Of a stretch of DNA of 11,698 nt, positions 1-11,200 are shown one piece after another. This DNA is from Thermoproteota archaeon. GTDB taxonomy: Archaea > Korarchaeota > Korarchaeia > B14-G2. The position numbers were made by a program, and so were the translations under genes. Numbering within the stretch: the first letter of the stretch is position 1; every line of letters starts with the position of its first letter. The stretch covers positions 1 through 11,698 of the forward strand of contig QMWA01000032.1 in assembly GCA_003661385.1 (NCBI GenBank), in the 5' to 3' direction. The notes beneath the pieces were generated by a model, which had not been told where the DNA came from, searched no databases, and saw only the letters and a list, made by a program, of their open reading frames with translations.

Positions 1-713
1 TATCAAAGTGCAGGAGGCTCATCACAGTAGACCTCAGGGGGACTGGGAAGTCAAGCAAGCCAGACTACCCCTATACCATCGAGATGATGGCTAGAGACTG
101 CATAGCTGTGGTCAGGGAGGCTGGGGAGGAGAGTGTGCATGTAGCTGGGCTGTCGATGGGCGGCATGGTAGCCATCGAAATGGCCTTAATTGAGCCCAAG
201 GCTGTAAGGAGCCTAACCCTCATCTCAACACACCACGGTGGGAACATAGCCCCCTCCCCGAGGGAGGTCTTGAGGAAGCTCACAGCACTGGAGCCAGGTG
301 ACCCAAGGGAGGTGAAGAGGGAGAGGCTTAAGCTAGCCTTCAGCAAGAGCTTCATCAGCAAGCACCCTGAGGTCCTAGATGAGATCCTGGACAGGTACTT
401 CAGCTCAGAGACCCCATACTACGCTGTCTGCAGGCAGCTTCAGGCTGTGCTCAAGTTCAATGCTGAGAGGAGGCTGAAGGAGATCAGGGCGCCAACCCTG
501 ATCGTAGCTGGAAGCGAGGACATCGTGGTAAACCCAGAGAACTCCAGGATGCTCCTCAAGAAGATACCCCAGTCGAAGCTGGTGGTGTTCAAGGGGGCAG
601 GGCACATGCTAAACGTTGAGAGGGCTGAGGACTTCAACAGACTCCTCCTAGAGTTCACTGGGGAAGTTGAGTCAAATACGGTCTCCTACACGCCCAAAGT
701 CAGGTTCATGTAG
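1..713 (+). CDS. Alpha/beta hydrolase, 5' end missing (runs off left edge)
   Basis: The frame is open from base 3 to the TAG at 711-713. The ATG at 84 is internal, because the codons before it encode a typical strand-beta4 region (RLITVDLRGTGKSSKP). The nucleophile elbow GLSMGG has its Ser codon at 153-155. The acid is probably the Asp at 519-521 (AGSEDIVV) and the base the His at 603-605 (GAGHMLNVE), so the Ser-Asp-His triad looks complete. A cap-like helical stretch lies between the elbow and the Asp. The family includes esterases, lactonases such as the enol-lactone hydrolase PcaD, and C-C hydrolases; the substrate cannot be read from sequence. The KAS III-like gene follows almost directly, so the two are probably co-transcribed. 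The protein ends with a short non-family tail (about VSYTPKVRFM). The family call is firm, the substrate unknown. Confidence 0.9.
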   Translation, partial: SKCRRLITVDLRGTGKSSKPDYPYTIEMMARDCIAVVREAGEESVHVAGLSMGGMVAIEMALIEPKAVRSLTLISTHHGGNIAPSPREVLRKLTALEPGDPREVKRERLKLAFSKSFISKHPEVLDEILDRYFSSETPYYAVCRQLQAVLKFNAERRLKEIRAPTLIVAGSEDIVVNPENSRMLLKKIPQSKLVVFKGAGHMLNVERAEDFNRLLLEFTGEVESNTVSYTPKVRFM

Positions 714-717
714 GTGA
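713..717 (+). promoter_or_regulatory. Ribosome binding site deciding the KAS III-like start
   Basis: GGTGA lies five bases before the ATG at 723. The GTG at 714 sits inside this motif, directly after the previous gene's TAG, and has no site of its own. The same five-base spacing recurs before two other genes in this window, so ATG 723 is preferred. Confidence 0.6.
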
Positions 718-722
718 CAGCT

Positions 723-1736
723 ATGGTGTATGCTAGGATAGTTTCAACAGGGATATATGTCCCTAGAAACGTGTACCCAATTGAGGAGATAGCTAGGATC
801 AAAGGGCTGCCACTAGATGAGGGGATGGTTGAGAGGACTGGAGTAAGGGTGAAGTGTGTCTCAAGCCCAGATGAGACACCAGCATACATGGCTGCTGAAG
901 CATGTAAGATGGCCCTGAGGAGGGCGGGGGTATCACCTGAGGAAGTTGACTTGATAATAGTGGCAACAGATACACCAGAGTACATAACGCCGCCGACTGC
1001 AGCTAAGGTCCACAAGCTCCTCGGGGCTGAGGAAAAGCTTACAGGGATATTCGACGTGAACGCCTCCTGCGCCGGCCCAGCTGTCTCCCTTGCAATAGCA
1101 TCCAAGTTCATAATGACTGAGCCAGAGACCTACAGGAATGTGCTGGTTGCAGGAGTCTATGGGATGACCAGGTTCCTTAAGTGGGAGAACCCAGCTGAAA
1201 TCCTCTTCTCAGATGGAGCTGGAGCAGCTCTGCTCCAGGCCTCAGATGAGCCAGGCTTCCTAGCCTCAAAGGTCTCTGGGACAGGAAAGTACTACGACTA
1301 CTGGGGGGTGTACGTGGGTGGAGCCATGGCGCCATGCAACAGCAATGTGAGCAGGGTGCCTGAGCTGAGGGAGGTAGCTGAGCCTAGGGAGCAGTACCTG
1401 AGGCTCCTCAAGCCATACCCTCCAGTAAACTACTGGTACTGGCCTGAGCTCGTCAGGGATGTAGTCTCTAAGATAGGCAAGAGGGTGGAGGACATAGACC
1501 TTGTAATCTTCACTCAAGTCAGGCTTAGGACGATCATGAAGGTGATGAGTGAGCTTAAGCTCCCACCTGAGAAGACGCACTGGGTGATGCACAAGTACGG
1601 GTACACAGGGTCAGCCTGCATATTCCAAGCTCTACACGATGCAGTTGAGGAGGGGAAGCTCAAGAGGGGAAGCCTGCTAGTCATGGTTAGCTCAGGTGTA
1701 GGCTTACAGATGGCCTCAGTAGCCTTCAGATGGTAG
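723..1736 (+). CDS. KAS III (FabH)-like / HMG-CoA synthase-like thiolase-fold enzyme with altered active site
   Basis: 337 residues from ATG 723; a GTG at 714 would add three. The thiolase fold is clear: N-terminal RIVSTGIYVP, nucleophile Cys116 in NASCAGP, LFSDGAGAA at 161-170 matching FabH FGDGAGA, and a C-terminal SSGVG near residue 325. FabH enzymes condense an acyl-CoA with malonyl-ACP using a Cys-His-Asn triad. Here the HQAN motif reads FTQVRLR (263-269), so catalytic His is Thr264. The GNTSA motif reads GYTGSA (293-298), so catalytic Asn is Tyr294. Decarboxylative condensation by the usual route is therefore doubtful. Acyl transfer, non-decarboxylative chemistry or a partner-dependent role is possible. 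It lies 9 bases after an alpha/beta hydrolase and faces a ligase-hydrolase operon across a 47-base gap. Superfamily call firm, reaction open. Confidence 0.87.
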   Translation: MVYARIVSTGIYVPRNVYPIEEIARIKGLPLDEGMVERTGVRVKCVSSPDETPAYMAAEACKMALRRAGVSPEEVDLIIVATDTPEYITPPTAAKVHKLLGAEEKLTGIFDVNASCAGPAVSLAIASKFIMTEPETYRNVLVAGVYGMTRFLKWENPAEILFSDGAGAALLQASDEPGFLASKVSGTGKYYDYWGVYVGGAMAPCNSNVSRVPELREVAEPREQYLRLLKPYPPVNYWYWPELVRDVVSKIGKRVEDIDLVIFTQVRLRTIMKVMSELKLPPEKTHWVMHKYGYTGSACIFQALHDAVEEGKLKRGSLLVMVSSGVGLQMASVAFRW

Positions 1737-1783
1737 CCACAGGATCTGAGGGCAGGCTGTGGTGGCAGCAGCCTCCAGGTGAG

Positions 1784-2596
1784 CTACCTCCTCTCCTGTA
1801 GCCTACACTTCTCTAGGAATCCTAGGAGCAGGGTGTTCACTGCCTCATGTCTCTCAATGATGACAGCATGCCCTGAGCCATGGACTATATGCAGCTCTGA
1901 GCCAGGTATCCCCTCACTTATTATCCTAGAGTAGAGTGGAGGCTTCACTCTATCTAGCTCAGCTGCCACGACCATGGTTGGAGCCCTTATGCCACCCAGC
2001 TTGGGGGTTAGAGGCTCCCTTTCAAGTGTTTTGAAGCACCTCAGCAGCCTTACAGCCGCGTCGAAGTCGAAGCTCCTGTAAACTGATGTGAGCCTCCTCC
2101 AGAGCATGCTCCAGTGCTCCTCCAGGAACCTATCTGAGTACACGTCGTTTATCCAGCCCAGTATGAACTTCACAGGGTCCCTTGTCTCAGCTGCAGCAAT
2201 CCACCTGTCAGTTAGGAGGCTGAGCGGCCTGCGTATCTCACTTACAGACGCTATGATGGATAGGCTCCTAACCATCTCAGGGTACTTGAGAGCGAAGAAC
2301 ATGGCTATCTCACCGCCATATGAGGTCCCTATGATGTGAGCTCTCTCAGCTTCAAGGTGCTCTAGGAGGGCTCTAAGGTCCTCGACGTGGCTGCTGAAGG
2401 TGTACTCGCCAGGAGGCTTGCTGCTCCTCCACTGCCCCCTACAGTCATGTAGTATAACCCTATACCTCCTTGAGAGCACTGTGGACTGGAAGCTCCAGCT
2501 CTCAGTGCTCATGAACACGCCATTAACCAGGGCAACAGGGTCTCCCTCACCATGAACCTCATAGTACAGCTTAACCTCCCCAGTATCCAGGTACAG
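1784..2596 (-). CDS. Alpha/beta hydrolase with intact triad, probable CTG start
   Basis: 270 residues if translation starts at the CTG at 2596-2594. The frame is open right back to the upstream gene's TGA (2599-2597) and contains no ATG, GTG or TTG before the GTG at 2518. Starting at 2518 would remove the first strands (EVKLYYEVHGEGDPVALVNG), which match residues 7-16 of the upstream paralog position for position. A perfect GGAGGTGA lies five bases before the CTG. The nucleophile Ser92 is in GTSYGG; likely Asp215 (AAELDRV) and His243 (GSGHAV) complete the triad. Family members hydrolyse esters, lactones or C-C bonds; the substrate is not evident. It is the last gene of the ligase-hydrolase-hydrolase operon and is clearly a paralog of the gene before it (shared RWI.AA, VYSD.FLE, FDFDA/IDFDA blocks). 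A conventional annotation would start at 2518. Confidence 0.85.
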   Translation of the reverse strand: MYLDTGEVKLYYEVHGEGDPVALVNGVFMSTESWSFQSTVLSRRYRVILHDCRGQWRSSKPPGEYTFSSHVEDLRALLEHLEAERAHIIGTSYGGEIAMFFALKYPEMVRSLSIIASVSEIRRPLSLLTDRWIAAAETRDPVKFILGWINDVYSDRFLEEHWSMLWRRLTSVYRSFDFDAAVRLLRCFKTLEREPLTPKLGGIRAPTMVVAAELDRVKPPLYSRIISEGIPGSELHIVHGSGHAVIIERHEAVNTLLLGFLEKCRLQERR

Positions 2597-3373
2597 TCAG
2601 CTCACCTCCCTCATGAACTTGAGAGCTAGCTTACTGAACAGGGAGGGGTTCTCTATGTGGGCTAGGTGCCCGACTCCACCCAAAACCTCCAGCCTAGATG
2701 AGGGGATGAGCTCAGCTATCTGCCTAGAGTACCTTACTGGGAGGAGCTTATCCTCCTCTGCTGCAGCCACTAGGACTGGAGCCTCTATGCCAGGTAGCTC
2801 ACCTGATATGTCTAGTGCCCGGAAGCTCTTGGCCAGCTCAAGGAAGGCGTCGAAGTCGATCCTCTCATACCTCAAGGCCTCAGCCTCAACCCTACTCCAG
2901 CTTGACTCCAAGAAGCTATCTGAGTAGATGTCTGGGTAGACAGCCTGGAATAGGTACCTGCCACTCCTGAATCGAGCTGCCATAATCCACCTATCAACCC
3001 TAGCCTTAAGCGGCCTGTCAGCTCTGCAGGCTGAGCACGCCGCGACAACGCCTCTAACAGGGTTCCTGGCGGCATAGAGGAGCGCGACAGCCCCACCGTA
3101 GCCTACTCCAATGAGGATCGGGTCTCTAAGCTCTAGCTCAGCTGCAAGCGCCTCGAGATCCCTGCAGTGCCTCTCTATGCTGTAGCTCTCCCTGGGCTTA
3201 CCAGACCTCCCCTGCCCCCTCAGCTCCACAGCCACAGCCCTAAAGCCAGCATACCACTCAATCTGAGGCCTCCAGTCCTCCACCCCACCCAGGATCCAGC
3301 TCAAGAGGACTATAGGCTTCCCCCTGCCATGCTCCTCATAGTACAGCTTAACCCCCACATCAGCATAGGGCAT
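2597..3373 (-). CDS. Alpha/beta hydrolase-fold protein lacking the nucleophile Ser (Gly91)
   Basis: 258 residues from ATG 3373. GTG 3382 and ATG 3379 are earlier in-frame options, but AGGTGA (3384-3379) is five bases before 3373. The fold is clear: VKLYYEEHGRG, ELRGQGRSGKP (50-60), the elbow region at 87-94, acid Asp208 (AAEEDKLLP) and His236 (GGVGHLAHIENP). The elbow reads GVGYGG instead of GxSxGG, so the catalytic Ser position is Gly91, encoded by GGC, one base from AGC. Asp and His remain. The protein is not degraded otherwise: no stop, full length, conserved cap. It may be a non-hydrolytic member of the fold, a binding protein, or a subunit working with its active paralog downstream. It sits 12 bases after the ligase stop and ends one codon before the paralog's proposed start, in the same frame. 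Confidence 0.87.
   Translation of the reverse strand: MPYADVGVKLYYEEHGRGKPIVLLSWILGGVEDWRPQIEWYAGFRAVAVELRGQGRSGKPRESYSIERHCRDLEALAAELELRDPILIGVGYGGAVALLYAARNPVRGVVAACSACRADRPLKARVDRWIMAARFRSGRYLFQAVYPDIYSDSFLESSWSRVEAEALRYERIDFDAFLELAKSFRALDISGELPGIEAPVLVAAAEEDKLLPVRYSRQIAELIPSSRLEVLGGVGHLAHIENPSLFSKLALKFMREVS
2602..2609 (-). promoter_or_regulatory. Perfect Shine-Dalgarno GGAGGTGA before a CTG codon
   Basis: Read on the - strand, GGAGGTGA lies inside the last codons of the upstream hydrolase. It is followed by GCTGA (which includes the TGA stop) and then CTG at 2596. It is the strongest such site in the window, and no ATG, GTG or TTG is at a usable distance. It is the main evidence for a non-standard start. 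Confidence 0.6.
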
Positions 3374-3378
3374 AGACA

Positions 3379-3384
3379 TCACCT
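3379..3384 (-). promoter_or_regulatory. Ribosome binding site for the Ser-less hydrolase
   Basis: AGGTGA on the - strand lies just after the ligase stop (TAG 3388-3386) and five bases before ATG 3373. The upstream GTG 3382 and ATG 3379 overlap the motif itself, so 3373 is the better start. Confidence 0.55.
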
Positions 3385-3385
3385 G

Positions 3386-4945
3386 CTAGTAGCTGTCCTC
3401 AGGCTTCCCATACAGCTCAGCTAAAGCAGCCCTAGAAACCTTCCCAAGAGGGCTCTTAGGTATCTCATCAAGAACCTGAAGGTACTTCGGTATCTTATAC
3501 CTTGCTATCTTCCCCTCACAGAACTCAGCCAGCTCCTCTTTAGTCAGCTTCTCCCCCCTCCTCAAGACCACAAGAGCCTTAGGGACCTCACCCCACTTCG
3601 GGTCTGGGACACCTATCACCACAGCCTCCTCAACCTTAGGGTGAGCCAGCAGAACCCTCTCAACCTCCTCAGGGTATATGCTCTCACTCCCACTCCTTAT
3701 AACATGCTTCCTCCTCCCCACGACATAGAAGTAGCCTTCATCATCTCTCTTCACGACATCCCCGGTGTGAAGCCACCCTCCTCTCAAGGCTCTCTCAGTC
3801 TCCTCAGGCATCCTCCAGTATCCACCGAATAAGGAGGGGCCTCTAAGCAGGAGCTCACCTTCCTCACCTGGTGAAGCCTCCACCTCACCATCCTTAACGA
3901 CCCTAGCCTCGACAAGCAGGTTAGGCTTCCCAATGGACCCCATCTTCCTCTCAGCATCCCATGGGTCTAGAGCGAAGACACCTGGCCCCATCTCAGTCAT
4001 CCCAAACCCCTGCTTCTGGACAACACCCTTCTTCATCACAGCCCTGATAAGCTCAGGGGTCAAGGCAGCTCCACCACTCGTTATCCACCTGACTGAAGTG
4101 AAGTCAGCCTCCCAGAACCTAGGTGACTCAACAAGCATCTTGAGCTGAGCTGGAACGAGGAAGAGGAAGGTAGGCCTCTCCCTCTCAACCAGCTCTATAA
4201 ACCTGTCTACACTCCACCTATGCATGATGAAGTTCACCCCACCATAGAGCAGCAGAGGAAGCGTGTATGTGTACCCCCCGATGTGGAAGAGGGGGACGGC
4301 AGTTATGGTAGCGCCACCAGGCACAGTCAAGTCCCTAAGAGTGTTCAAGGCATTCCAGAAGACCATCCTATGGGTGACAACACCCCACTTAGGCCTCCCA
4401 GTAGTCCCACCAGTCTGCAGCAGCATCACAGGGTCTTCAAGCCCAACAAGCTCAGGGCTATCATCTCCACCCAAGTCAACAGCCTCAAGGTAGCTTACAG
4501 AAGGCCCAAAGCCCCCCTCACCTATGTGGACGAGCTCACGTACACCGAGAGACTCAGCAACAGCCTTAGCCTTCCTGGCATGCTCCCCCTCAAAGAAGAG
4601 GGCCTTCGGCTGCACGTCACCAGCTAGGTCAGTGAGCTCAGGAGCAGCTAGCCTGACGTTAAGAGGAGCGAAGATAGCTCCAATCCTAGAGCAAGCGAAG
4701 AGAACCTCCAAGACCTCAACCCTACCCCAAGAGAGCATAGCTACAACATCCCCCCGCCCAACACCAAGCTCACTACGCATGTACCCAGCGACACGTCTAG
4801 CTCTCTCACTAAGCTCCCTGAAAACCACCCTCCTAACCCCCCCGGCAGCGTCGTCAGCCAAAGCAACCCAGCTTGGAGAAAGCTCAGCTCTCCTCTCAAT
4901 CCAGGTATTAATCCAAAACCCCTCAAACGGAACAGCCCCACCCAC
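3386..4945 (-). CDS. AMP-forming acyl-CoA synthetase / ligase (ANL superfamily)
   Basis: 519 residues, a normal length for the family. These enzymes activate a carboxylic acid to an acyl-adenylate with ATP and then load it on CoA. The core motifs are present in order: P-loop TGGTTGRPK (178-186), GFGMTE (313-318), HTGD with Asp396, GRRKHVIRSGSESIYP (410-425), and C-terminal PKSPLGKV with the adenylation Lys502. The hinge position, often Asp or Lys, is His414 here. Overall similarity is to medium/long-chain fatty acyl-CoA or aryl-CoA ligases; the acid is unknown. The GTG start at 4945 follows a GGTGG site five bases upstream, with a TAG just before it. It is the first gene of a three-gene operon with two alpha/beta hydrolases. 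Its job is probably to make the acyl-CoA used or released by the neighbouring enzymes. No signal peptide or membrane segment is seen, so it should be cytoplasmic. Confidence 0.94.
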   Translation of the reverse strand: MGGAVPFEGFWINTWIERRAELSPSWVALADDAAGGVRRVVFRELSERARRVAGYMRSELGVGRGDVVAMLSWGRVEVLEVLFACSRIGAIFAPLNVRLAAPELTDLAGDVQPKALFFEGEHARKAKAVAESLGVRELVHIGEGGFGPSVSYLEAVDLGGDDSPELVGLEDPVMLLQTGGTTGRPKWGVVTHRMVFWNALNTLRDLTVPGGATITAVPLFHIGGYTYTLPLLLYGGVNFIMHRWSVDRFIELVERERPTFLFLVPAQLKMLVESPRFWEADFTSVRWITSGGAALTPELIRAVMKKGVVQKQGFGMTEMGPGVFALDPWDAERKMGSIGKPNLLVEARVVKDGEVEASPGEEGELLLRGPSLFGGYWRMPEETERALRGGWLHTGDVVKRDDEGYFYVVGRRKHVIRSGSESIYPEEVERVLLAHPKVEEAVVIGVPDPKWGEVPKALVVLRRGEKLTKEELAEFCEGKIARYKIPKYLQVLDEIPKSPLGKVSRAALAELYGKPEDSY

Positions 4946-5710: not shown

Positions 5711-5953
5711 ATGGAAGCTTTGGTGTACATGGATGAGAAGGGGCGTATACTGATACCAAAGGAGCTGAGGGAGAGGAGCGGATACAGGGTGTTTAAGGCT
5801 AGGGTAATGGGTGATGGAGCCATAGTCCTGGAGCCTCTAGGTGCAGCTGTAAGGAAGCTTGGGGGGAAGTACAGGGGGTTGCTGAAGGCTGATAGCATGG
5901 AGGAGCTTGAGGAGGTGGAGGAAGAGTACTTGAGGCGTGAGGGTAGGATATGA
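5711..5953 (+). CDS. vapB: AbrB/MazE-type antitoxin VapB
   Basis: 80 residues. The N-terminal half is a swapped-hairpin AbrB DNA-binding domain, recognised by MDEKGRILIPKELRERSG (residues 7-24) followed by the strand-rich YRVFKARVMGDGAIVLEPL. The C-terminal 25 or so residues are acidic and helical (SMEELEEVEEEYLRRE), the usual toxin-binding part. Antitoxins of this type neutralise the PIN ribonuclease encoded next and repress their own operon as a complex with it. GGAGGT lies five bases before the ATG. The stop overlaps the vapC start by four bases (ATGA), the usual arrangement for coupled expression. A palindrome beside the TATA box is a candidate binding site. Confidence 0.88.
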   Translation: MEALVYMDEKGRILIPKELRERSGYRVFKARVMGDGAIVLEPLGAAVRKLGGKYRGLLKADSMEELEEVEEEYLRREGRI

Positions 5954-6384
5954 TCAGCCAGAGGATCTTGCTTGATGCAGACGTGTTCATATCATACCTG
6001 GTTGGCAACAGCCTGTACAAGCAGAGCTCAAAGGTCATCAACACCGTCCTGAAGGGCACCACCAGGGCATACACATCCTCTGAAGTCTACAACGACATCA
6101 CTGCAGCCCTCAGAAGCAGTGGAGTAACGCTACCAAAGGTCATAGAGTTTATAGAGGACATAGCTGCAATCCCACATGAACCCCTACCTGTCACTTCTGA
6201 GATAGCAGCTGAAGCCCTGAGGCTATACGAGAAGCACCATGGGCCTAGGAAGCTCCACTACTTCGACTCATATCACATAGCCACAGCAAAACACTACAAC
6301 CTACCACTGGTGACAAGCGACAGGTACATCATAGCACACGCTAGAGAGCTTGGAATCAAAGCAGTAGACCTCAGAAGGGTATGA
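5950..6384 (+). CDS. vapC: PIN-domain ribonuclease toxin VapC
   Basis: 144 residues, typical for VapC. The four acidic residues expected to bind Mg2+ are visible: Asp9 (with Asp11) in LLDADVF, Glu45 in TSSEVYND, Asp106 in YFDSYHIATA, and Asp124 in LVTSDRYI. PIN toxins cut RNA, often tRNA or rRNA, when freed from the antitoxin; the target here cannot be told. The start overlaps the vapB stop as ATGA, so translation is probably coupled. The gene looks intact and potentially active. A 9-bp inverted repeat begins five bases after the stop. Being flanked on the left by a long gene-poor stretch fits a mobile toxin-antitoxin module, but no repeats or integrase mark a boundary. Confidence 0.92.
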   Translation: MISQRILLDADVFISYLVGNSLYKQSSKVINTVLKGTTRAYTSSEVYNDITAALRSSGVTLPKVIEFIEDIAAIPHEPLPVTSEIAAEALRLYEKHHGPRKLHYFDSYHIATAKHYNLPLVTSDRYIIAHARELGIKAVDLRRV

Positions 6385-6483: not shown

Positions 6484-7311
6484 CTACCCACCTGTAGGAG
6501 GAGCTGGAGGAGTGGCTGGCGGAGCTGGTGGAGCTCTTGGAGGCCTAGCTCTCCCCTCTTCTCCCTCCCCCCCCTCTCCCCCTCCTCTCTTCTCTCCTCC
6601 CTTCCTACCCTCTCTCTTCTCCTCTCCCTTCGCCTTGTGCTCTTGCTGTGCTGCTGGTGGGCTTGCAGGTGGCTTCTCTGGAGGTGTGGTTTGTGGAGGC
6701 CCTTTTGGAGCGCACTTCTTCACGGCTTCCTCGGCTACTTTCTGGAGGTCTATAGGGCACTTCCACCCTCTTCTTGCCATCTCGCCTCCTATAGCTTTTC
6801 CTTCCTCAGCGAAGGAGAGGGCGAGCTCTCTTAGGCTTTCAGCGAGCTCCCATGCCTGCTCCCTCAGGTCAGCTGCCATGTCCATGCTTACTTCAGCGAG
6901 CTCTCCTCCAAGAGAGCCTACTACGATGCCTATTGCCCTCATCTCAGCTGCCAGCACGGCCATTTCAGCCAGGAATGCGTCTAAGGTTATCTCACCGCTC
7001 TGGAGTGCTTGGATTAAGCTGAGCCTCCTCTCTCTGACCTCTGCTAGAGTCTGCAGCAGCCACCTATGTCTCTCATCTATCACACTGAGCTTCTCCCTGT
7101 GTGCTGTGAGGACTGTCATAGTCCTCTCTAGGATGAACTTGTGGATTAAAGCCTGCCTCTCTGCAATGAGCTCATGGAACACTATGGAGATCTCCTTGCC
7201 CAGGGGAAGGGTGTTGTCTTGGGCAGCAGCTAAGCAGCTGCACAGGCTGGCTGCGAGCACTAGTGCTAGTGTTGCACCCGCTGCTCTCCCAGCTGTATGC
7301 ATCTTCTCCAC
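6484..7311 (-). CDS. Secreted or surface coiled-coil protein with low-complexity Pro/Gly/Glu/Lys tail
   Basis: 275 residues; no family recognised. Residues about 8-30 form a signal peptide: a hydrophobic ATLALVLAASLCSCLAAA stretch with possible cleavage near AAA-QD. Cys24 and Cys26 lie in it, but there is no clear lipobox. Residues about 38-200 are almost wholly helical with heptad-like Leu/Ile/Ala spacing, suggesting a long coiled coil. Cys185 and Cys200 near its end could form a disulfide. From about 203 the tail is Pro-rich, then Gly/Glu/Lys/Arg-rich, then PPAPPATPPAPP, like a wall-associated or surface stalk. The GTG at 7311 has GGTGG four bases upstream; ATG 7302 is an alternative. It lies downstream of the membrane-bound helix-turn-helix gene in the same direction, but has its own TATA box and a phased repeat array. 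Its role may be as partner or target of that regulator (inference). Confidence 0.75.
   Translation of the reverse strand: MEKMHTAGRAAGATLALVLAASLCSCLAAAQDNTLPLGKEISIVFHELIAERQALIHKFILERTMTVLTAHREKLSVIDERHRWLLQTLAEVRERRLSLIQALQSGEITLDAFLAEMAVLAAEMRAIGIVVGSLGGELAEVSMDMAADLREQAWELAESLRELALSFAEEGKAIGGEMARRGWKCPIDLQKVAEEAVKKCAPKGPPQTTPPEKPPASPPAAQQEHKAKGEEKREGRKGGEKRGGGEGGEGEEGRARPPRAPPAPPATPPAPPTGG
6549..6631. repeat. 83-base polypyrimidine/polypurine tract inside a gene
   Basis: On the + strand 6549-6606 is uninterrupted C/T. A single A at 6607 is followed by another C/T run to 6631. On the - coding strand it is a purine run encoding the Gly/Glu/Lys/Arg part of the secreted protein's tail. Such tracts can form triplex DNA or slip in replication. 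Confidence 0.75.
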
Positions 7312-7342
7312 AGCACCACCCCTGTGCTCTCTGGCTTAGCCT

Positions 7343-7351
7343 GCTTTTAAC
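7343..7351 (-). promoter_or_regulatory. TATA-like box of the coiled-coil protein gene
   Basis: GTTAAAAGC on the - strand is centred about 36 bases before the GTG start at 7311. A transcript starting about 25 bases downstream would give a leader of some 10 bases containing GGTGG. The gene probably has its own promoter rather than relying only on the gene upstream. Confidence 0.45.
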
Positions 7352-7384
7352 GGTTTCTACGCCCTGGCGGCTTAGCTGGCGTCC

Positions 7385-7435
7385 TGAACTGTTCAATAGA
7401 GTTCATTTCTGTTCAATTGTGTTCAGTGTGCTTCA
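7385..7435 (-). repeat. Array of TGAAC pentamers at exact 10-bp spacing, probable regulator-binding array
   Basis: Read on the - strand, TGAAC occurs at 7425-7421, 7415-7411, 7405-7401 and 7395-7391. A near-copy TGAAG lies at 7435-7431, all with a 10-bp step. The spacers are five bases each, and three of the four are A/T-rich (ACAAT, AGAAA, TCTAT). The last pentamer is followed by A and an inverted copy, giving the 11-base palindrome TGAAC-A-GTTCA (7395-7385). Sites one helical turn apart lie on one face of DNA. The array starts 20 bases past the stop of the membrane helix-turn-helix gene and ends about 33 bases before the TATA box of the coiled-coil gene, a position suited to an activator or cooperative repressor. 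Confidence 0.7.
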
Positions 7436-7454: not shown

Positions 7455-8372
7455 CTACCTCAGGTACACTATGTTCTGTCTGCCTACTCTCCTCCTGTAG
7501 ACCAGCCCCCTCCTCTCAAGCTCGCTGACAACCATGCTGACCTTGGCCTTGGAGAACCCTGTCAGCTCAACTATCTTTGACTGAGGTAGTGCTCCACCAT
7601 GCTTCTTGAGGAGCTGGATGACAAGCTGGTGTGCAGCTAGAGCAGGGGAAGCAGGCAGCTTCCTCCTCATCCTAGTGAGGGCTAGCGCTGCTGACGTGGC
7701 TAAAGCTGCTACTGCAGCTAGGACGTACGGGAGCATGCCTTCTAGGCGGCGTTCCGTGCTAGCTGGAGCCCCAGCCAGCTCTACGACTACTCTAGGCTCT
7801 CCTGCTCCAAAGTCTCTTCTCCCATACCATATAAGCTCTCCACCCCTCACCTGGTCTTGAGGAGGTGTAGCTGCTACCACTGTGGAGTGAGGGGGGAGCT
7901 TGATGATCAAGACATCGTCTCTCGAGAGGTAGAAGCCTCCTTCAAAGACATCTCCAATGACGACCTTGCTGTCCTCTACCCTAGCAAAGCCTCTCCAGTA
8001 GAACTCGTAGCGGATGACCCCATAGAGCCCTGTAGCAGCCTGGACCTTCCCGACCACTATGTTGAAGTCTGCAGCCTCCATGGAGCGTCCTGTGACGATG
8101 ACTGCTCTCTCAACTATGCTAGTCATCTTCTCCTCGAACTCCCTGAGGTGTGAGGACAGGTTCTTCTCAAGCTCTGCAGCATACTCGTCGAATGCTCTCA
8201 CTGCTTCATCGTCCTGTAGTAGCATCCTTCTTTCCACAACCCACTTAGCTCCTCCCTGCTCGTCTACAGTGATTATGAAAGCTGTTGAGAAGCTCCACCC
8301 AGCCTCCGGCTGAGTAGGCTGCCACATGAAGCTGACAGCAACTAGAGCTAGGAGAGCTCTTCCAGCTAGCAC
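7455..8372 (-). CDS. Membrane-anchored transcriptional regulator: signal/anchor, outside domain, TM helix, cytoplasmic winged HTH
   Basis: 305 residues from GTG 8372, which has GAGGTGG five bases upstream; GTG 8381 lies inside that site and would add three residues. The N-terminal hydrophobic segment (AGRALLALVAVSFMW) is a signal peptide or anchor. Residues about 20-205 form a mixed strand/helix domain expected outside the membrane, including a charged helix around 55-90. A membrane helix follows at about 213-233 (MLPYVLAAVAALATSAALAL), then an RMRRK stop-transfer sequence. The last 60 residues are a MarR/TrmB-like winged helix: HQLVIQLLKKHGGALPQ, VELTGFSKAKVSMVVSELERRGLV and a wing with RRRVGRQN. 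Archaea have membrane-tethered winged-helix proteins of this layout; I cannot name the outside domain. It probably senses an external or envelope signal. A phased TGAAC array directly downstream, before the secreted-protein gene, is a candidate target (inference). Confidence 0.8.
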   Translation of the reverse strand: MLAGRALLALVAVSFMWQPTQPEAGWSFSTAFIITVDEQGGAKWVVERRMLLQDDEAVRAFDEYAAELEKNLSSHLREFEEKMTSIVERAVIVTGRSMEAADFNIVVGKVQAATGLYGVIRYEFYWRGFARVEDSKVVIGDVFEGGFYLSRDDVLIIKLPPHSTVVAATPPQDQVRGGELIWYGRRDFGAGEPRVVVELAGAPASTERRLEGMLPYVLAAVAALATSAALALTRMRRKLPASPALAAHQLVIQLLKKHGGALPQSKIVELTGFSKAKVSMVVSELERRGLVYRRRVGRQNIVYLR

Positions 8373-8377
8373 GTAAG

Positions 8378-8384
8378 CCACCTC
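8378..8384 (-). promoter_or_regulatory. Ribosome binding site of the membrane regulator
   Basis: GAGGTGG on the - strand is followed by five bases and GTG 8372. The alternative GTG 8381 lies within the motif, so it is less likely to be the start. Confidence 0.5.
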
Positions 8385-8528: not shown

Positions 8529-9416
8529 CTAGGCTGTAGGCTGCACGTAGCCTACTGGCACATTCTCTCTCACGTGCTCTACAGTCTTCATCCCAGGTAT
8601 CACTGTGTGTATCCTCTTGTCTTCTAGCAGGGGCTTGAGCAGCTCTCTTGGCTTAAGCCACTTAAGCATCCTACCTCCTACGAAGGGCTTCTTCACGATG
8701 ACCCCTACGTCATTCTCCTCAGCTAGGTCCAAGACCTCCTCTATAGCAGTCCCCATGTAGAGTATGTTGTATGAGACCTGTACCACATCGAACTCACCTG
8801 AGAGTATGGCTAGGGCTATGGTCTTAGCTTCAGCCACGGGGTCCACACGTACTCTGAGGTCGAGCGCGCCATGCCCGCCTGTTATCCCGATGTACCTCAC
8901 CAAGCCAGAGTCTCTGAGCTCCTTGACCGCCTTGAGAGCTCCATTAGCCCCCATCACAAGCTTGAGGGTGCTGGGAGAGCTTACCGAGTGGAGCTGGATG
9001 ATGTCTATTGCTGGGACGCCAAGCCTACGTAGGCTCCCCTCTACGTCTGCCCTAGCCTTAGCTGCTCTCCTCTTGGCAGTCTTGGTTGCAACATACACTC
9101 TGCCACCATAGCGTCTGAGAGCTTCTCCAACAACCCTCTCACTTGCTCCCTTACCGTAGTTTGCAGCTGTGTCAACGAAGTTCACGCCCAGCTTAAAGGC
9201 CTCAAGCAGAGCCTCAGCTTCACGCACCCTCCTCAGAGGAGCCCCACCAAAGCCTATGACAGAGACCTCAAGCCCAGTACGCCCAAGCCTCCTCTTAGCC
9301 ATCTTACCTCCAGTAGTGAGCTCGGAGGAGAGCCTAAGCTTAGACAGCAGGAAAGCTAGAGCAGCTGCACCACCAGCTTTAAGAAAGCACCTCCTACTCA
9401 GCAAGACATCACACAC
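8529..9416 (-). CDS. Aldo/keto reductase with N-terminal Tat signal
   Basis: 295 residues. The first 25 contain a twin-arginine motif, S7-R-R-C-F-L-K13, followed by the hydrophobic AGGAAALAFLL, so the folded enzyme is probably exported by the Tat pathway. The reductase barrel begins near residue 41 (KRRLGRTGLEVSVIGFGGAP). The catalytic tetrad is complete: Asp82 and Tyr87 in VDTAANYG, Lys112 in TKTAK, and His143 in QLHSV. GITGGH (177-182) and VIPGMKTVEHVREN near the end fit the NADP(H)-dependent family. The C terminus is short: unlike many Tat-type relatives there is no ferredoxin-like Cys cluster. The physiological carbonyl substrate is unknown. No ribosome site precedes GTG 9416, but a TATA-like element lies 24 bases upstream, which suggests a leaderless mRNA. 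TTG 9404 is a weaker alternative start that keeps the Tat motif. Confidence 0.92.
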   Translation of the reverse strand: MCDVLLSRRCFLKAGGAAALAFLLSKLRLSSELTTGGKMAKRRLGRTGLEVSVIGFGGAPLRRVREAEALLEAFKLGVNFVDTAANYGKGASERVVGEALRRYGGRVYVATKTAKRRAAKARADVEGSLRRLGVPAIDIIQLHSVSSPSTLKLVMGANGALKAVKELRDSGLVRYIGITGGHGALDLRVRVDPVAEAKTIALAILSGEFDVVQVSYNILYMGTAIEEVLDLAEENDVGVIVKKPFVGGRMLKWLKPRELLKPLLEDKRIHTVIPGMKTVEHVRENVPVGYVQPTA

Positions 9417-9916: not shown

Positions 9917-11200
9917 GTGGTCAAGCTGAAGGCTGCTTCTCTCAGAGTAGGCGTCGTGGTGTACTCTCCAGAAGGCTTATGGGATGATGGCAGCGTGTGG
10001 TCTCCTAAGCTCATCTGCAGGAAGCCCAGAGCTGGTGTAGCTCTCGAGCTGAGGTCTCTAGGGGTGTGCCTCGCTTCCGTCTGGGGGCAGCTTACACTGC
10101 CCTATAGGAGCGTGGGTGAGCTCGCTAGCAAGGCTAGGGAGGCAGCTGAGCTAGCTGCTTCAGCTGTGCTAGAGGAAGCTAGGTGCCTGGGGTGCTCCAG
10201 GTCAGGTCTGCTGTGTGTAAGCCACTTTACTGGAGGCTGCAGCAGCAGTGTGGCATACAGGCTGACTGCTCCATGGGCTAGGCTGCGTGTTAAGGGCTTT
10301 AGGTGCAGGCTAGGCATGGGCTTAGGGTACGTGTCTAGAAGTGGGATCACAGTCTGCACTCCCTTAGTAGGAGGTGTAGTGGGGAGGAAGCTGAGGAGGA
10401 GGGTTAGAAGGGCGCTGAGGCATGTCGCTGAGCTAGCTGGGTGCGTTGAGGCCTTGACGAAGGTCAGCAGACTTCCTAGCAGGCTAGGAAGGCTCAGCAG
10501 GCTCCTGGATGCTGTCCTATGTGAGCTGAACCCAAGGTACGTCAGGCTGAAGGCGCCACCGCTTCTCTCAGAGGCTTATGGAGCTTTTGCCTCGGCTAGA
10601 GGAGTCTACTCAGCTTACAGAGCTGCAGTCAGCATAGTAGTCTCTAGGCTGAGCTTGTGGCATGCTCCAGTTCTCGAGGCGTCTGTCAGGAGAGCACTGG
10701 AGCAGGGTGTTAGAGCAAGCTACGCGCTAAGGCTGTTTGAGGAGGCTAAGGGGGTTGAGCTGAGCGAGCTGGATGCTATAGTAGAGAAGCTAGGTGAGCT
10801 AGAGCACAAGATCCTGATGTGGCTTGCAGTAAAGCATGTGGATGATGCAGGTGAGGCTAAAGGGAGGTTCACTGGAGTTCTCAGCAACCACGTGAGCAGA
10901 CGTGGCGTAGAATGGGTCCTCGAGAGCATAAGCTCAAGGAAGCCTAGGATCGGCCTCACTGCACCAGAGCTGACAGAGCTGCTCTCACTAGGAGACAGGA
11001 AGCTCCTCTACAGGAGCAAGGGACCCTTAGCTAAGCTCCAGTCCAAGGGGCTCATCAAGGCAGTTAAAGCTAGGAAGCTTAGAGGAGGAAGCTACGTGGC
11101 TGCCTACACACTCAACTTAAGGCATGTGGTCTGCAGGCAGCTTGCATCTAAAGCCGCTTCAGCTGCCATGGAGGAGCTTAAGCTAGACCTCCTATGGTAG
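9917..11200 (+). CDS. Uncharacterised 427-residue helical protein with probable C-terminal winged helix
   Basis: No family recognised. The frame is long, follows a good TATA box, and a TAG at 9905-9907 limits the start, so it is probably real. Residues 1-60 are strand-rich (LRVGVVVYSPEG, VALELRSLGVCLASVWGQLTL). Residues 65-90 form an Ala/Glu helix. Cys90, 93, 100 and 108 (C-x2-C-x6-C-x7-C) could bind a metal, and Cys34, 51, 130, 147, 176, 202 and 406 make the protein unusually Cys-rich for one with no signal peptide. A very basic patch, KLRRRVRRALRH (158-169), may contact nucleic acid. The middle (about 185-305) is helical. Residues about 345-402 look like a winged helix (LTAPELTELLSLGDRKLLYRSKG, then GLIKAVKARKLRGGSYV as helix and wing). 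This suggests a DNA-binding or DNA-processing protein, but no enzyme motif is evident. Confidence 0.72.
   Translation: MVKLKAASLRVGVVVYSPEGLWDDGSVWSPKLICRKPRAGVALELRSLGVCLASVWGQLTLPYRSVGELASKAREAAELAASAVLEEARCLGCSRSGLLCVSHFTGGCSSSVAYRLTAPWARLRVKGFRCRLGMGLGYVSRSGITVCTPLVGGVVGRKLRRRVRRALRHVAELAGCVEALTKVSRLPSRLGRLSRLLDAVLCELNPRYVRLKAPPLLSEAYGAFASARGVYSAYRAAVSIVVSRLSLWHAPVLEASVRRALEQGVRASYALRLFEEAKGVELSELDAIVEKLGELEHKILMWLAVKHVDDAGEAKGRFTGVLSNHVSRRGVEWVLESISSRKPRIGLTAPELTELLSLGDRKLLYRSKGPLAKLQSKGLIKAVKARKLRGGSYVAAYTLNLRHVVCRQLASKAASAAMEELKLDLLW

Follow-up and report, generated by a model that had tools for sequence, protein, structure and literature searches.

The window (the whole analysed stretch of DNA, 11,698 nucleotides) contains a 10-bp-phased array of direct TGAAC repeats, located between the gene of a membrane-bound regulator and that of a secreted coiled-coil protein. 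Although no binding or expression data are available, we consider it probable that the adjacent DUF7345-DUF7343 protein, a membrane-tethered one-component regulator of an uncharacterised archaeal family, uses this array as its operator. The array is a likely landing site for that protein because other archaeal groups, too, have similar rows of repeats at this gene pair. From the candidate operator, the candidate partner gene and the phasing rule one obtains a directly testable account of how an archaeal regulator held at the membrane could read DNA. The reading of direct repeats by a MarR-type winged-helix domain (wHTH) would be unusual if true.

The array and its rarity in the genome

The array occupies positions 7391-7435 and is read on the minus strand, in the sense of both flanking genes. 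It is intergenic, with the regulator gene (7455-8381, minus strand) on one side and the secreted coiled-coil protein gene (6484-7311, minus strand; start GTG at 7311 or in-frame ATG at 7302) on the other. Direct reading confirms the composition given in the original prediction, namely four TGAAC (7391-7395, 7401-7405, 7411-7415 and 7421-7425) and one TGAAG (7431-7435), with a step of exactly 10 bp between neighbouring pentamers throughout and an inverted TGAAC at the promoter-proximal end (7385-7389, plus strand). The inverted copy and the proximal unit at 7391-7395 make up a perfect palindrome, TGAAC-T-GTTCA. From 7435 to 7385 the minus strand reads TGAAG CACAC TGAAC ACAAT TGAAC AGAAA TGAAC TCTAT TGAAC A GTTCA. 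Three of the four spacers are indeed A/T-rich, as had been claimed (TCTAT, AGAAA and ACAAT, 4/5 A/T each), the fourth being CACAC.

The array starts 19 bp past the regulator's stop codon and ends about 25 bp from the BRE/TATA-like sequence of the coiled-coil gene. The latter, GTAGAAACCGTTAAAAG (7344-7360, minus strand), is a candidate recognized by inspection without transcript data. Its TATA box, GTTAAAAG (gene sense, 7344-7351), is plausible, and the unmapped transcript start is inferred to lie near 7322. Being so close to the regulator's stop codon, the array would be carried on the regulator transcript in the event of read-through, and the repeats could then act as RNA, either in the 3' UTR of the regulator or in a 5' leader. 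We give this next to no weight, however, given that the folding stability is not above that of shuffled sequence (z −0.04), that no terminator-like hairpin was found when one was looked for, that exact 10-bp phasing is a signature of the DNA helix, and that the corresponding array in genome G357 lies upstream of a candidate TATA.

Statistics for the window's own genome (G000, 1.74 Mb) were taken from 389 kb of it, supplemented by genome-wide pattern searches. No 5-mer recurred four times at any fixed period from 7 to 25 in 3000 dinucleotide shuffles of the 143-bp intergenic region, and the array is the sole fourfold 5-mer array, at any of these periods, within the 389 kb. This upholds the earlier judgement that the pattern is too regular for the local composition. 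When three successive TGAAC at 0-1 mismatch were searched for (TGAACx3), only the array was recovered from the whole 1.74-Mb genome; allowing up to 2 mismatches added one poor match elsewhere. Hence, for this pattern at least, the array is a local element rather than a dispersed regulon motif. A scan of viral contigs for TGAACx3 returned scattered matches only.

Two 17-bp stretches, 20 bp apart, are 88% identical, and a past duplication is therefore possible. Nevertheless, the proposition that the array arose by chance, or by slipped-strand tandem duplication of a 20-bp unit, and has no function is strongly disfavoured and in our view scarcely credible: none of 5000 shuffled intergenic regions from the window matched it, and phased arrays that are independent of it, their spacers being different, are present at this module in other genomes.

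Phased arrays at the same module in other archaea

DUF7345 is rare outside the haloarchaea, being found in 4/297 and 4/393 genomes in two broad, overlapping searches (five genomes in total). Among the genomes searched, only four non-haloarchaeal loci combine DUF7345 with a wHTH. A related-locus search with the single regulator protein found none, and one with a two-member alignment found only G026 and one haloarchaeon. G026 belongs to the same phylum as the window, in another class, and its regulator and coiled-coil genes form a tandem in swapped order. G124 and G357 belong to another phylum; G124 has the regulator with no recognised coiled-coil partner at the locus, while in G357 the gene row is coiled-coil, bactofilin-like gene, regulator. 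The coiled-coil proteins in the modules of G026 and G357 are homologs of that in the window (E 1e-26 for G357). The intervening gene of G357 (L257:894-2039) encodes a secreted bactofilin/FapA-like beta-solenoid protein, below Pfam cut-offs, which is perhaps a further member of the module. Finally, G212 has a DUF7345 protein without a wHTH.

Exact runs of at least three copies of the half-site TRAAC (TGAAC or TAAAC; reverse complement GTTYA), at any step from 6 to 25, were sought in 389 kb of G000, 272 kb of G124 and 112 kb of G357. Each of these samples contains one such run, always at step 10 and always at the module locus. In G124, TGAACx3 at up to 2 mismatches gives four matches, the best of which (1 mismatch) lies directly upstream of the DUF7345-DUF7343 gene. 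In shuffle tests of the intergenic region of G124 the outcome was 5/5000 with TGAAC and 0/5000 with TRAAC. The TGAACx3 search gave no match at the locus in either G357 or G212. The half-site in G357 is TAAAC, with three TAAAC and one TTAAC at 10-bp steps (87-121), followed by two more TAAAC on the same lattice, which extends to 151. This array starts 143 bp upstream of the coiled-coil ATG and ends about 20 bp before a TATA-like sequence, and shuffles of its intergenic region matched the pairs in 0/5000 cases and the run length in 1/5000. The orientation of the half-sites relative to the genes varies between loci.

It should be noted that the R (G/A) of the half-site was admitted only after TAAAC had been seen in G124 and G357; thus only the test of G124 with TGAAC alone used a half-site that the window had set in advance. 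Values for TRAAC are accordingly post hoc in part, although one unchanged sequence was used for every step from 6 to 25 and step 10 alone was conspicuous.

G026 lends only weak support, which would not convince by itself. TGAACx3 at up to 2 mismatches has a single match in its whole genome, which is intergenic and upstream of the coiled-coil/regulator operon; the locus also has one TAAAC pair (reached in 80/5000 shuffles) and near matches, and the 414 kb sampled contain 12 pairs at step 10. Beside this TAAAC-N5-TAAAC pair, upstream of the operon, CTGTTTT occurs three times at exactly 10 bp (L039:7569-7610, gene sense), the sole 7-mer to do so at period 10 in the 414 kb. Since CTGTTTT differs in sequence from TRAAC, we count this array as suggestive only. 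Other wHTH loci from the first search for relatives had no convincing TGAAC pairs nearby. The suggested look upstream of homologs thus yields exact 10-bp TRAAC repeats at the locus in G124 and G357, and weak support in G026. The comparative evidence, in the absence of binding data, favours the original idea that the phased sites serve the membrane-bound winged-helix protein encoded next to them.

The array might instead be the operator of a different, unlinked transcription factor, such as a soluble protein of the Lrp, MarR or TrmB type, that controls the module in several archaea. There are no binding data to contradict this, and the proximal palindrome TGAACTGTTCA would suit an ordinary dimeric regulator. 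However, the array occurs once per sampled sequence in three genomes, each time at the DUF7345-DUF7343 locus, as one would expect of a regulator dedicated to this locus and not of a global one, and it is missing from the G212 locus, where the DUF7345 protein has no wHTH. We therefore regard an unlinked factor as unlikely, without dismissing it.

The haloarchaeal counterpart

DUF7345 is present in 57/59 of the haloarchaeal genomes searched, with 1-5 copies each. In all 16 of the haloarchaeal genomes tested (G342, G319, G320, G351, G311 and 11 more, with loci such as L210 and L220), the best DUF7096 gene divergently adjoins the best DUF7345 gene, and the gene pair thus appears to persist into this group. 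DUF7345 and DUF7096 are both present in Haloferax volcanii. None of DUF7345, DUF7343 and DUF7096 is named by any paper found in the literature searched, which would miss work using locus tags only or published in subscription journals, and the divergent DUF7345-DUF7343/DUF7096 pair is apparently an undescribed conserved module.

The halobacterial system (PF24036-PF24034 with PF23379) resembles that of the window in domain architecture and in having phased direct repeats (at half of the loci compared), and in both systems a gene beside the regulator, DUF7096 in Halobacteria, encodes a signal-peptide-like protein in which a helical region is charged. It differs in that the genes are divergent, that there are two boxes two helical turns apart, and that the half-site sequence is only partly the same. 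In the window's coiled-coil protein the N terminus is signal-like and the tail is rich in Pro and Gly, and the match of this protein to DUF7096 is under the Pfam cut-off (E 0.011; hhalign E 7e-4, probability 26%). Given this weak similarity, homology of the partners is not established.

Among the 30 top-scoring haloarchaeal loci, 15 have in their intergenic region a GAC-NN-TTYA-like box and a GACGTTTTAT box exactly 20 bp apart, while these boxes lie at a variable distance (14-20 bp) from the GAAA in the core promoter of the regulator. The similarity between the two boxes peaks sharply at offset 20, with 6.8/10 positions against 4.0 at the next best offset, and was reached in 0/5000 permutations of the alignment columns. 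Hence phasing at exact multiples of 10 bp is observed at this module in several archaeal groups. The core of the box, TTYA, is the reverse complement of the TRAA in TRAAC, although the full GTTYA is found in only 4/13 non-redundant first boxes. Half of the haloarchaeal loci are without canonical boxes, no locus has an exact 10-bp TRAAC pair, and no exact threefold 5-mer array at period 10 was found in them. The boxes 20 bp apart came to light only once the loci had been anchored on the conserved GAYGTTTTAT, and the motif must therefore be considered as chosen by eye. A third box, GATRGAAAGCRTTTT, was rejected as an operator; it sits at the expected leaderless core promoter and its distance to the other boxes varies.

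These loci also bear on whether the phased repeats merely shape the DNA, through intrinsic bending or through positioning of archaeal histones or the nucleoid by a 10-bp A/T periodicity, with no sequence-specific regulator. Exact helical phasing and A/T-rich spacers are what such a role would call for. The repeated unit, however, is a specific pentamer ending in C and not A/T alone, and the spacers are not conserved; in the haloarchaea the sequence separating the specific boxes is far less conserved than the boxes themselves. Moreover, the arrays are found at the module locus and are not widespread. We give little credence to a purely architectural role.

The regulator and a proposed model for reading the array

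The preferred reading, an operator for the adjacent protein, rests in part on what can be predicted of that protein, which is presumed to bind the array without binding data. It has a DUF7345 ectodomain (residues 37-164; 86.8 bits against a Pfam cut-off of 27.5) and a C-terminal DUF7343 wHTH of the MarR type (residues 252-307; 68.3 bits against 27.6). Its N-terminal segment is hydrophobic, and a helix predicted at about 217-237, between the two domains, is presumed to be transmembrane (TM), with low pLDDT. The predicted topology is thus ectodomain-TM-wHTH. An AlphaFold model built with 23 homologs has a mean pLDDT of 86, with the ectodomain and wHTH blocks above 90; in it, a single helix precedes the wHTH and none follows. 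The modelled wHTH superposes on MarR-type wHTHs at about 1.0-1.3 Å over 62 residues. A PDB sequence search with the regulator family gave no match. FMO proteins were the top Foldseek matches, but with a TM-score of only about 0.2 they are not taken as homologs.

By this model, each TRAAC half-site would be contacted by one C-terminal winged helix, and the exact steps of 10 or 20 bp would place all half-sites on one face of the DNA. Several regulators, held at the membrane as the predicted topology implies, could then occupy the row side by side. With a single helix before the wHTH and none after it, monomers lined up on the half-sites would be the simplest arrangement, although MarR-family wHTH proteins usually bind palindromes as dimers; both the binding and its cooperativity are inferred. 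The secreted coiled-coil gene would be the regulated partner, the array being just upstream of its BRE/TATA. In archaea, a site in this position suits an activator. Activation of the partner is therefore the probable, inferred sign of control, with repression not excluded. The ectodomain may sense an envelope signal or the secreted partner itself, which would be a natural candidate ligand; the signal, too, is inferred. A broader scheme, which we put forward only tentatively, is that of an ancient signalling module spread over several archaeal phyla, in which a DUF7345-DUF7343 regulator and a DUF7096-like secreted coiled-coil partner form a feedback loop with the partner as co-sensor. The direct repeats of its operators would be set whole helical turns apart because the winged helices reach the DNA as a row, coming from the side of the membrane.

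By its layout the array would work like operators of the OmpR/PhoB type, which also consist of tandem direct repeats about one helical turn apart, with some steps of two turns, and are bound cooperatively by winged-helix domains. Examples are the pho box and the ArcA DR sites, the latter with 2-5 direct repeats at 11-bp or 22-bp steps and cooperative binding (PMC3798270). Unlike these, the array in the window belongs to an archaeal promoter and has a 10-bp rather than an 11-bp step, and the adjacent regulator is a membrane-anchored MarR/DUF7343 wHTH protein without a receiver domain. A Pfam search of the regulator gave neither a Trans_reg_C nor a receiver-domain match, and the protein does not belong to the OmpR/PhoB family.

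The nearest archaeal analogue in kind is ArnR/ArnR1 of Sulfolobus acidocaldarius, a membrane-bound one-component HTH regulator acting at a promoter, for which both ArnR boxes are needed together for binding (PMC6396743). Those boxes are inverted repeats, TCGAC-N5-GTCGA, and ArnR has an N-terminal HTH and a putative HAMP domain (PMC6396743); in contrast, the window has direct TGAAC repeats and a C-terminal wHTH, and no DUF7345 is described for ArnR. In Methanococcus maripaludis, likewise, the winged-helix activator EarA binds several short sites (TACATA, four copies) upstream of an archaeal promoter, that of fla (PMC6396743, PMC13286277). Their sequence is unrelated, however, and those papers give no ArnR homology or evidence of membrane anchoring for EarA. 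CsmR was set aside as a comparison system, having turned out to be an Lrp-type protein.

Elsewhere in the window, a gene cluster at 84-4945 encodes three alpha/beta-hydrolase-like proteins, a KAS-III/HMG-CoA-synthase-like protein and an AMP-forming acyl ligase, as judged by eye from the translations. At 5711-6384, the gene of an AbrB/MazE-like protein (just below cut-off) precedes that of a PIN-domain protein, likely as a VapBC-type toxin-antitoxin pair. The gene at 9917-11200 encodes a 427-aa protein with no Pfam or NCBIfam match, and that at 8529-9416 an aldo/keto reductase whose N terminus weakly resembles a twin-arginine signal (TAT_signal below cut-off).
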